DNA from: Ornithinibacillus bavariensis
GTDB taxonomy: Bacteria; Bacillota; Bacilli; Bacillales; Amphibacillaceae
Assembly (NCBI RefSeq): GCF_018333235.1
Contig: NZ_BORP01000010.1
Coordinates: 1-51,199 of the forward strand
Reading direction: 5' to 3'
DNA length: 51,199 nucleotides
Shown here: one piece after another, positions 39,683 through 42,201 of the stretch
Layout: the number at the start of each line of letters is the position of its first letter
Position numbering within the stretch: the first letter of the stretch is position 1
The notes under the pieces: generated by a model
Told to the model about the DNA's origin: nothing
The model's database searches: none
The model's input: the letters and a program-made list of their open reading frames with translations, nothing else
Translations under genes and position numbers: made by a program

Positions 39683-39724
39683 AATAATATTTACTTTACA
39701 AAGTAAATATTATTACTCTATAAT
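39683..39724 (+). promoter_or_regulatory. 15-bp perfect dyad overlapping a promoter
   Basis: AATAATATTTACTTT (39683-39697) is repeated exactly inverted at 39700-39714 with only two bases between. A TATAAT -10 box lies at 39719-39724, and a -35-like TTACAA (39696-39701) falls on the dyad centre, 17 bases upstream. A protein bound to the dyad would block RNA polymerase, so this is a likely repressor operator for the acetamidase-like gene. The core TACTTT..AAAGTA recalls MarR/DUF24-type operators. Confidence 0.65.
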
Positions 39725-39734
39725 TAAGTTGTAC

Positions 39735-39799: not shown

Positions 39800-39828
39800 A
39801 ACCATATTTTTCTATGGAGGTTAAATCT

Positions 39829-40785
39829 ATGTCCAAAATTTATGAGTTAGATCCTACTTCTGACACCTTGCATGGATTTTTTAGCAAAGATATAGAACCT
39901 GCATTACACATTCATTCAGGAGATACTGTTATTTTTCAAACATTAGATTCGGCATGGGGATTAGAAAAGCGTTTATCTCCGGGTGCACAAAGAAAGCGAT
40001 TTACAGAGATTAAGACAGAACGACAAGCGGAGCAATTTGGCCATGCATTAGTTGGCCCAGTCTACATTCATGGTGCAAAGCCAGGACTTACTTTAGAGGT
40101 AAAGGTTAATGAGATTATTCCAGGCTCATGGGGATGGACTTCAGGAGGAGGATTTCCGAGTTACTGGAATAAAAAGCTAGGCTTGGATCAAGAGAAAGAA
40201 GTACTTCTGGATTTCGAACTTGATATTGAAAAAATGGTGGGTACAAGTCAATTTGGCGATTTTGACTACACTGTTGGGTTACATCCATTCATGGGGATTA
40301 TGGGTATGCCCCCAGAGGAAGAAGGTCAACATTCTACATTCGTTCCTCGAGAAACTGGCGGAAATATCGATTGCAAAGAATTACAAGCAGGGAGTACTTT
40401 GTTTTTACCGATATCTGTTCCGGGTGGTCTTTTTTCTACAGGAGATGGTCATGCAGCTCAAGGGGATGGTGAAGTGGCGGGCCCTGCGTTAGAGTGCCCA
40501 ATGGAACGGGTGAGTTTAACTTTTTGTGTTAGAGATGACATAAAAATAGAGAGACCACGAGCAAAAACGAATTCAGGATGGATCACCATGGCATTTCATG
40601 AAGACCTGGATGAAGCTATGTGGCTTGCATTAAATGATATGCTGGATTTAATGTCGGAGCTATACAATATTTCCCGAACAGAAGCTTATGCTTACGCAAC
40701 ATTAGTGGTGGATTTACGTGTTACACAAATTGTCAATTTCTCAAAAGGAGTCCATGCTTTTTTACCTTTTGATGCCTTAAAGTGA
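39829..40785 (+). CDS. acetamidase/formamidase family protein
   Basis: A 318-residue protein of the FmdA/AmdA family, which hydrolyses small amides such as formamide or acetamide to acid and ammonia. Conserved parts include the N-terminal SGDTVIFQTLD, GPVYIHGAKPGLTLEV, IGMPPEE-like GMPPEEEG, the GGNID segment and LFSTGDGHAAQGDGEV (metal-binding region). The substrate is unknown. GGAGGTT lies eight bases before ATG 39829; the frame opens at 39814. It is preceded by a likely operator and ends at a terminator. Confidence 0.9.
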   Translation: MSKIYELDPTSDTLHGFFSKDIEPALHIHSGDTVIFQTLDSAWGLEKRLSPGAQRKRFTEIKTERQAEQFGHALVGPVYIHGAKPGLTLEVKVNEIIPGSWGWTSGGGFPSYWNKKLGLDQEKEVLLDFELDIEKMVGTSQFGDFDYTVGLHPFMGIMGMPPEEEGQHSTFVPRETGGNIDCKELQAGSTLFLPISVPGGLFSTGDGHAAQGDGEVAGPALECPMERVSLTFCVRDDIKIERPRAKTNSGWITMAFHEDLDEAMWLALNDMLDLMSELYNISRTEAYAYATLVVDLRVTQIVNFSKGVHAFLPFDALK

Positions 40786-40817: not shown

Positions 40818-40860
40818 AAAATAACAGACTTCCGTGGCTATGGAAGTCTGTTATTTATTT
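40818..40860. terminator. bidirectional terminator after the acetamidase gene
   Basis: AAATAACAGACTTCC and GGAAGTCTGTTATTT form a perfect 15-bp stem with AT-rich flanks. It separates two convergent genes. Confidence 0.88.
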
Positions 40861-40902: not shown

Positions 40903-41958
40903 TTATATACCATCGTTTAATGTTCCTATATAGAACAAATTGTCAGGGGTTACGTTATCTAAATAACCTTCCAAAATGCGACTGACATCATCTAATGTAT
41001 TCGATAATGATACCGAAGCACCTTTCTTTTTAGTAAAGGGTTCTGCAACAAAAAAACGTTGCGTGAAGTAGGCTTCAAGGCGCTCGCCTCGCTTATAAAT
41101 TTCCTTGTCTGCAAATGGTAATTTATCAAAACCAAGAGCATTAACTAAAAAACGTAATTCCCGATACCGGCGCATAATCTTCCGTGTTTTTTGTTGAAGA
41201 TTGAAATGCTTTTTATCAAGTTGAGCATCTTCAATCATTACGGAGGTAGAAGAAACAGGATTTACTGCTGGAAAAAGTTTTCTTGACACTTGTTCTGCAT
41301 CAAAAATCATGAGTGTATCTAAAGGTCCATATGGAAGTTCTTCATCTACCGCTTCTCCAGTAGGGTCGATAAGGAATGTCGTAATCGTTTTTCCTTCAGG
41401 TAGCTTCACTTTTTCGAGTAATGAATAGATTTCTCCTGAGACAACTAAGGATCGATCAGTAGCTAATGCTACATCTTGTTTGTCATTTAGTCGCATCATT
41501 TTCTCATATGCGCTTTCTGTGTCTTGGCAAAGAATATTTGCAGATTCTCTAACCTCGTTTAATTCAAGACTATCCAACCTTGGCATTAAAAGTACAGTAG
41601 CATAATTTCTTTCTTTTAACCGATAAAATATTTCAGCTAGTAGTACCAATTGTCCCATTCCCGGTCTAGCGATGAAACCATTTATTCCTCCTTTCGTTAT
41701 CGGAGCTAAAAAATCCAATGCTTTAATACCAGTTTCAATCATTTGCACATTATTCCCACGAATGATTAAATCATCGACTTTACACTCTGCAAGTTCTGCT
41801 AATGCTACTAACGTTCGCACTTCTGCACGTTCTAACGGAGTCTTGCCAGTACATAAATTAGATACGGTTGCAGGGCGCAATCCTTTTTCTTTAGCTGCTA
41901 TCGTTAAATTAGGAACTCGCTTTCGCAGTAATGAAACATTAAGTTTTAAATTATCCAC
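40903..41958 (-). CDS. HTH protein fused to a degenerate F1-ATPase-beta-like domain
   Basis: A 351-residue protein. Residues 8-66 are a Cro/Xre-type helix-turn-helix (LTIAAKEKGLRPATVSNL). From residue 75 the rest resembles the F1/V1 ATP synthase beta chain: ETGIKALDFLAP, the P-loop position ARPGMGQL (97-104, where active enzymes have GGAGVGKT, so Lys and Thr are lost), KLFPAVNPVSSTS (228-239), RYRELRFLVNALGFDKL and RGERLEAYFTQRFFVAEPFT. The catalytic GER motif is also replaced (MPR). It cannot be a working ATPase of the usual kind. GTG start, with GGGAG nine bases upstream. Regulatory role inferred; no partner known. Confidence 0.78.
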   Translation of the reverse strand: MDNLKLNVSLLRKRVPNLTIAAKEKGLRPATVSNLCTGKTPLERAEVRTLVALAELAECKVDDLIIRGNNVQMIETGIKALDFLAPITKGGINGFIARPGMGQLVLLAEIFYRLKERNYATVLLMPRLDSLELNEVRESANILCQDTESAYEKMMRLNDKQDVALATDRSLVVSGEIYSLLEKVKLPEGKTITTFLIDPTGEAVDEELPYGPLDTLMIFDAEQVSRKLFPAVNPVSSTSVMIEDAQLDKKHFNLQQKTRKIMRRYRELRFLVNALGFDKLPFADKEIYKRGERLEAYFTQRFFVAEPFTKKKGASVSLSNTLDDVSRILEGYLDNVTPDNLFYIGTLNDGI

Positions 41959-42157
41959 TGACTGATGCTCCCTTACTTCTTGGATATGTATATTTTAAAT
42001 CTCTAATCATAGTGTAACAAGAATGTTTGTTTCAGTATTAATTAAAGGTAATTTACTTCATCTTACACTATTAGATATTTTTACTGAAAGAATAATCCCC
42101 TCATGCATAATAGTATTGTTTTCTCCAAATAAGAATTTATCTCTTTATTTTATAACA

Positions 42158-42201
42158 TAAAAAAGCCCCTGAAACATTGATAAAACAATATTTCAAGGGC
42201 A
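42158..42201 (-). terminator. terminator of rpsD
   Basis: On the minus strand GCCC and GGGC with inner CAAT/ATTG and AAAT-type pairs form a hairpin followed by T6, about 25 bases past the rpsD stop. Confidence 0.75.

Follow-up and report, generated by a model that had tools for sequence, protein, structure and literature searches.

The stretch of DNA analysed here, 51,199 nucleotides from Ornithinibacillus bavariensis and hereafter referred to as the window, contains a gene whose product joins a helix-turn-helix (HTH) of the Cro/C1 type to a shortened F1 β subunit (Table 1). A convergent gene encodes an amidase of the FmdA/AmdA type (hereafter fmdA). A terminator-like hairpin follows rpsD on the other side, indicating that the fusion gene is probably a separate transcription unit. 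Most of its relatives have ATG at the place where it has its GTG start codon. The amidase scored 94 bits against PF03069 (gathering cut-off, 27) and has solved relatives (2f4l and 2ii1); its score against the NCBIfam formamidase equivalog, 54 bits, was below the cut-off of 500 bits. We preferred its start at 39829 to that at 39814, which gives the longest ORF, because GGAGG precedes 39829 within that ORF and because of the starts of the relatives.

Table 1. Positions of the genes, domains and candidate regulatory elements in the window
Feature	Position	Strand	Remark
Gene for the HTH-F1 β protein (predicted repressor)	40903..41958	-	351 aa, GTG start
Cro/C1-type HTH, N-terminal, residues 1–66	41761..41958	-	Pfam HTH_26; helices in model
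RPATVSNLCTGK, residues 28–39, presumed recognition helix region	41842..41877	-	conservation in 66 members
F1 β nucleotide-binding domain, shortened, residues ~71–243	41230..41748	-	homology
Degenerate P-loop ARPGMGQL, residues 97–104	41647..41670	-	AtpD counterpart GGAGVGKT
F1 β C-terminal helical domain, residues ~244–351	40906..41229	-	homology
Terminator-like hairpin 3′ of rpsD	42165..42200	-	
FmdA/AmdA-type amidase gene, 318 aa	39829..40785	+	Pfam PF03069; starts of relatives
Candidate operator TTACTTTACAAAGTAA, 5′ of the amidase gene	39691..39706	.	20.6 bits of a maximum of 22.6
Possible half-operator, left arm TTACT	39713..39728	.	exactly 22 bp past the first site
Promoter-like site TTTACA-18-TATAAT of the amidase gene	39695..39724	+	11/12 matches
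Terminator-like hairpin separating the amidase gene from the convergent repressor gene	40819..40856	.	

The protein family and its F1 β ancestry

Of 299 genomes of the order, 64 gave matches to the fusion protein (E ≤ 1e-30); they represent 27 of 116 genera, and two of them (G004 and G265) have remnants. Surveys of the class and the phylum, whose draws overlap, gave 12 of 299 and 3 of 398 genomes, respectively, at E ≤ 1e-28. From 70 loci with context, representing a subset of the positive genomes, we retained 66 full-length members and left out a copy without the HTH (L051), two remnants (L053 and L054) and a truncated copy (L127). Between close relatives, dN/dS is about 0.1. The gene neighbourhood differs from genus to genus, every neighbour cluster being confined to at most 15 loci. 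In the plasmid collection, 72 records matched; among the 20 listed, one is a true member, carried by a Paenibacillus megaplasmid and annotated as ‘hypothetical protein’. A phage origin was rejected, since the 19 matching records in the phage collection are all AtpD-like, with at most 31.5% identity, and so was a defence system, with no PADLOC match. Nine unannotated phage records (H21–H29), matching F1 β across 80% of the query, look like host DNA within that collection.

All 66 full-length members carry the HTH. It matched HTH_26 at E ≤ 0.01 in 57 of them (best, 3.9e-6), the score of the window protein by itself lying under the gathering score. In the presumed recognition helix region, R28, A30–L35, G38 and K39 are invariant in all 66 members, and the segment as a whole is nearly so. 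One extra F1 β copy without the HTH lies at L051 5422–6231 (G069 C5:138421–139227), 174 bp 3′ of a symporter gene, and has the P-loop ARSGMGQV; the same genome also has a full-length repressor gene. Remnants or truncated copies are located at G004 C11:51211–51609, G265 C43:76200–76658 and G966 C23:19089–19466, from which it seems that the repressor gene is occasionally lost.

Sequence comparison established that the nucleotide-binding and C-terminal domains are homologous to those of the F1 β subunit, AtpD. The window protein matched F1 β at E 8e-30 and Rho, which has a RecA-like fold related to F1 and no HTH, much more weakly at E 0.0071; KaiC and RadA were absent among the matches listed. 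The best NCBIfam match was the F1-like β subunit MSC_0618 (141 bits, under the curated cut-off of 570 bits), and the atpD equivalog gave 122 bits (cut-off, 462.85 bits). The local homology starts at residue 70–71, and the HTH stands in place of the N-terminal β-barrel, which is absent. In a tree, the family formed one clade (100/100) on a long stem; the tree, with 17 rows and long-branch warnings, did not give the F1 β branch of origin.

The motifs on which catalysis by F1 β depends have degenerated in the family. In every one of the 66 members, Gln replaces the Lys of Walker A, and the next residue, Thr in AtpD, is hydrophobic. In the alignment with AtpD, the catalytic Glu motif GERTRE is unconserved, and the part from the P-loop to PAVNP has deletions of 9, 17 and 24 residues. 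Residues 278–284, at the DELSEED position, are variable among the 66 members. The Walker B Asp is present in 64. From the losses of Walker A, GERTRE, the β-barrel and DELSEED, neither ATP hydrolysis nor assembly into F1 is to be expected, and the domain presumably no longer functions as an ATPase. The preliminary description of the locus had proposed a DNA-binding domain fused to a dead F1 β subunit, without the catalytic Glu motif and with a segment before PAVNP missing. These points were borne out, and no member restores Walker A; the constancy of the HTH, which that description had left as a question, extends to all full-length members but not to the extra copy in L051.

Other parts of the domain are well kept. 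The adenine-packing positions of F1 β, which we take to be Tyr345, Phe418, Ala421 and Phe424 of the bovine subunit and mapped through the alignment, are occupied in the family by Phe/Tyr (66/66), Phe (64/66), Ala (61/66) and Phe/Tyr/Trp (59/66), respectively. Invariant residues in the body of the protein include G102, Q103, T193, D198, E295 and Q300.

A predicted operator at repressor and amidase genes

The upstream regions of the 66 genes, 9.9 kb in total, hold 73 occurrences of the palindrome TTAC-N8-GTAA, as against 0.29 expected from the 30 found in 1.01 Mb of flanking DNA. As a control, we varied the spacer; lengths of 2–7 and 9–15 each gave 0–2 occurrences upstream. Sites of at least 9 bits were present within 160 bp of the start codon in 59 of the 66 members, a figure that is partly circular because the scoring matrix was derived from the same upstream regions; the spacer control and the loci independent of the matrix are free of this circularity. 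The own promoters of 54 members have 2–4 sites. These are arranged in tandem: 56 of 92 adjacent matrix sites are exactly 22 bp apart and 76 are 21–24 bp apart, their usual positions being around −31, −53, −75 and −97 relative to the start codon. The upstream member of the promoter-proximal pairs starts with TTGC, which fits a −35 box, in 28 of 35 cases, and the next site of the pair falls at the expected position of the −10 box. Such a layout is that of a repressor. The family is very probably autoregulated by these promoter-overlapping palindromes, the window gene, whose own promoter has no such operator, being an exception.

Altogether, seven members have no sites in their own promoters (the window, L076, L077, L078, L060, L118 and L101), and none of them contributed to the matrix. 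In L101, two sites lie 346–391 bp 5′ of the repressor gene; the other six have a site of 20.2–22.6 bits upstream of a linked fmdA. In place of the operator, the window (~42050–42080), L076, L077 and L078 share a box close to AATAGTGTATGATAAAATAAAT 5′ of the repressor gene, perhaps the promoter of that gene in the window's clade.

The candidate operator before the window amidase gene is the top-scoring site of the window and the sole full operator there, with no tandem pair. The segment 22 bp further on scored −0.7 when considered as a degenerate full site, and is thus a half-site at most. The −35 box of the promoter-like site lies inside the operator; promoter-like matches of this kind are not more numerous than in the shuffled background. 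The pattern TTACTYTAYAAAGTAA, which was composed after the site was known, has one exact match in the genome, namely the fmdA site; with two mismatches allowed, it had 34 matches in the genome versus 65 in the control and hence no excess.

Linked fmdA genes were found in 12 of the 66 loci, seven in the window's genus and the other five spread over four further families, Paenibacillus among them, and not in the remaining 54. They follow the repressor gene in its apparent operon, precede it or, as in the window, converge with it. Each of the 12 loci has an operator 5′ of fmdA or of the repressor gene heading the apparent operon (gaps of −17 to 45 bp). Unlinked fmdA genes with an operator exist in G200 (70% identity) and G236 (69%). 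We also examined the best 30 of the 59 fmdA matches in the order, using an operator threshold of 11 bits. An operator was found at fmdA in 6 of 17 repressor-positive and 0 of 13 repressor-negative genomes; five of the six genes are under it directly and that of G062 as the second gene of the repressor operon. In the other 11 of these 17 genomes, fmdA had no operator at 11 bits. The best score at the G225 gene (61% identity) was only −0.8, and the G063 gene has a 10.4-bit site at −46. At the fmdA match of G245, where a contig end leaves 267 bp for the test, there is no site.

At E ≤ 1e-50, no fmdA was found in 35 of the 64 repressor-positive genomes of the order. The difference in fmdA presence between repressor-positive (29/64) and repressor-negative genomes (30/235) has a Fisher value of 7e-8 that ignores kinship, and is not our main evidence. 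A gene for an α/β hydrolase, an identity based on the domains of four such proteins, directly follows the repressor gene in L056, L088, L089 and L109 and fmdA in L076, L078, L086, L087 and G200. The operators and their link with fmdA, taken together, suggest that we are very probably dealing with an autoregulated repressor of an amidase unit, not with a regulator of ATP synthase.

A larger regulon was not supported by strict matches to the pattern. Of 39 such places in 50 repressor-positive genomes, 26 belong to the promoters of the repressor gene itself or of fmdA; the other 13 compare with 15 in 50 repressor-negative genomes, which amounts to background. Nine of the 13 lie within ORFs, some of them doubtful, and four outside. 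As the strict pattern misses known sites, including that of the window, weaker targets may exist. The four places outside ORFs are mere leads to possible targets, the exporter and the peptidase being recognised from their domains: a pair of sites (21.6 and 15.7 bits, separated by 45 bp) where an ABC exporter gene starts (L206 1243–1303; G227 C4:368642), a 21.7-bit site 43 bp 5′ of an ORF for an M3-family peptidase (L212 1234–1249; G200 C1:1116433), a strict site 83 bp 5′ of a 160-aa ORF in G063 and another 157 bp 5′ of a sigma-factor-like gene in G059. The symporter gene adjoining the repressor gene in L058, L099, L100 and L102 was rejected as a target, its operator-like site lying within the coding frame, and was excluded from the counts. 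The atp operon was also rejected: the window's genome has a single 13.9-bit site, 240 bp 3′ of atpC, which was judged to be a chance occurrence. No site of at least 9 bits was present in the atp regions of G006, G007 and G009; that of G003 has an 11.5-bit site at another place, so that none of the four has a counterpart to the atpC site.

Proposed mode of action and its alternatives

We consider it likely that the protein is a one-component repressor in which the HTH occupies the operator, the F1 β half serves as a module for oligomerisation and sensing, and the amidase unit and the repressor gene itself are the targets. The HTH would bind the 16-bp palindromes, probably as dimers, and in most relatives the tandem sites, two helical turns apart, would cover the −35 and −10 boxes. 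The position of the operators makes repression, rather than activation, the likely outcome, and the two-turn spacing in the relatives makes oligomeric, co-operative binding likely. Most members would repress their own genes and, where it is present and linked, the FmdA-type amidase gene, in several loci with a neighbouring α/β hydrolase gene. In the window, the repressor would act on the amidase gene, the own promoter being without an operator. The remodelled base-binding pocket would take up a small molecule, probably one connected with the substrate of the amidase, and the repressor would then be released. We put forward such a ligand as a hypothesis, which we regard as the most likely reading of the sensing half; it is suggested by the retained base pocket, by the lost catalysis and by the genes for the amidase and the hydrolase.

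The repressor family shares with other Cro/C1-type (XRE) repressors the N-terminal HTH, palindromic operators and apparent autoregulation, and differs from them in its sensory domain, which is derived from F1 β. With AtpD it shares the fold and sequence of the nucleotide-binding and C-terminal domains; it lacks the crown, the Walker A Lys/Thr and GERTRE, has internal deletions and an added HTH, and is encoded outside the atp operon. F1 β paralogues with other jobs have been reported in mycoplasmas (PMC3369863, PMC11864180). Among them, MSC_0618, the β subunit of an F1-like ATPase, and MMOB1670, a subunit of a gliding ATPase, are full length and without an HTH, and MSC_0618 is encoded beside an F1-like α subunit; the repressor family forms its own clade. 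Regulators built on enzymes are also on record, such as MocR/GabR, described as having an aminotransferase fold, and BirA. The ROK regulators are another enzyme-derived family. In all of these an enzyme fold is coupled to a DNA-binding domain and signals the presence of a small molecule, whereas here the fold comes from a subunit of a rotary motor and has lost its catalytic motifs.

The chief new result is the predicted DNA target. We found no description of an F1 β domain as the sensory half of a repressor in the literature searched. ATP synthase is not mentioned in the main text, as far as available, of PMC12565409 and PMC5882156, and the supplementary tables of PMC12565409 may hold the motif unnamed.

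Rotary ATPase β subunits are among the most conserved proteins known. If our reading is correct, a branch of them has shed catalysis and become a sequence-specific repressor, which would represent a new route for the origin of a transcription factor. The family now has a proposed operator and a proposed target gene, and a screen could identify its ligand. Should nucleotides or F1 inhibitors still bind in the pocket, the protein could serve as a soluble reporter for such compounds.

A different ligand is plausible, though unlikely: the repressor might sense an adenine compound or the energy state, the old base pocket binding an adenine nucleotide, nucleoside or second messenger, with no part played by a P-loop in co-ordinating phosphate, and DNA binding being switched thereby. 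The aromatic and Ala positions of the pocket, kept in 59–66 of the 66 members, speak for this; however, they may reflect core packing only, the Walker A Lys and Thr are gone in all members, and an amidase target, in some loci accompanied by a hydrolase, gives no hint of the energy state. We think it rather improbable that the F1 β part is a structural scaffold for oligomerisation and nothing else, in a ligand-free repressor that fixes the level of itself and of fmdA. F1 subunits naturally form rings, and the 2–4 own-promoter sites of 54 members would suit such a scaffold, but the invariant residues from G102 to Q300 listed above look like more than packing.

The preliminary description had suggested a transcription factor that perhaps senses the state of ATP synthase. 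Its regulator role is now supported by the operator predicted across the family, and its views of the ancestry, the dead P-loop and the HTH stand; the sensing of ATP synthase, for instance through binding of other F1 subunits, appears very improbable. It has in its favour the homology to the β subunit, but the N-terminal β-barrel is lacking, DELSEED is unconserved, the atp regions of the four relatives have no conserved operator that would match the atpC site, and the target identified is an amidase gene. That the gene is a decaying or chimeric one without function, as the remnants and truncated copies in G004, G265 and G966 might be taken to mean, is hardly conceivable in view of 66 full-length members, a dN/dS of ~0.1, the invariant HTH segment and the operators.

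A more specific version of ligand sensing, which we regard as improbable, is that the protein mimics a target: as a soluble stand-in for the β subunit, it would bind F1-directed natural products or another toxic ligand of the site and thereby derepress genes for enzymes that split amides and esters and remove the compound. The genes induced would be those for the FmdA-type amidase and the α/β hydrolase and, in single genomes, possibly the ABC exporter and the M3 peptidase, and a ring-like oligomer would perhaps sit on three operators spaced by 22 bp. In BlaR1/MecR1, a sensor derived from a drug target controls a hydrolase, with BlaR1 the β-lactamase. We liken only the logic of such target mimicry to that system and claim no homology, the repressor having neither a membrane sensor nor a protease.
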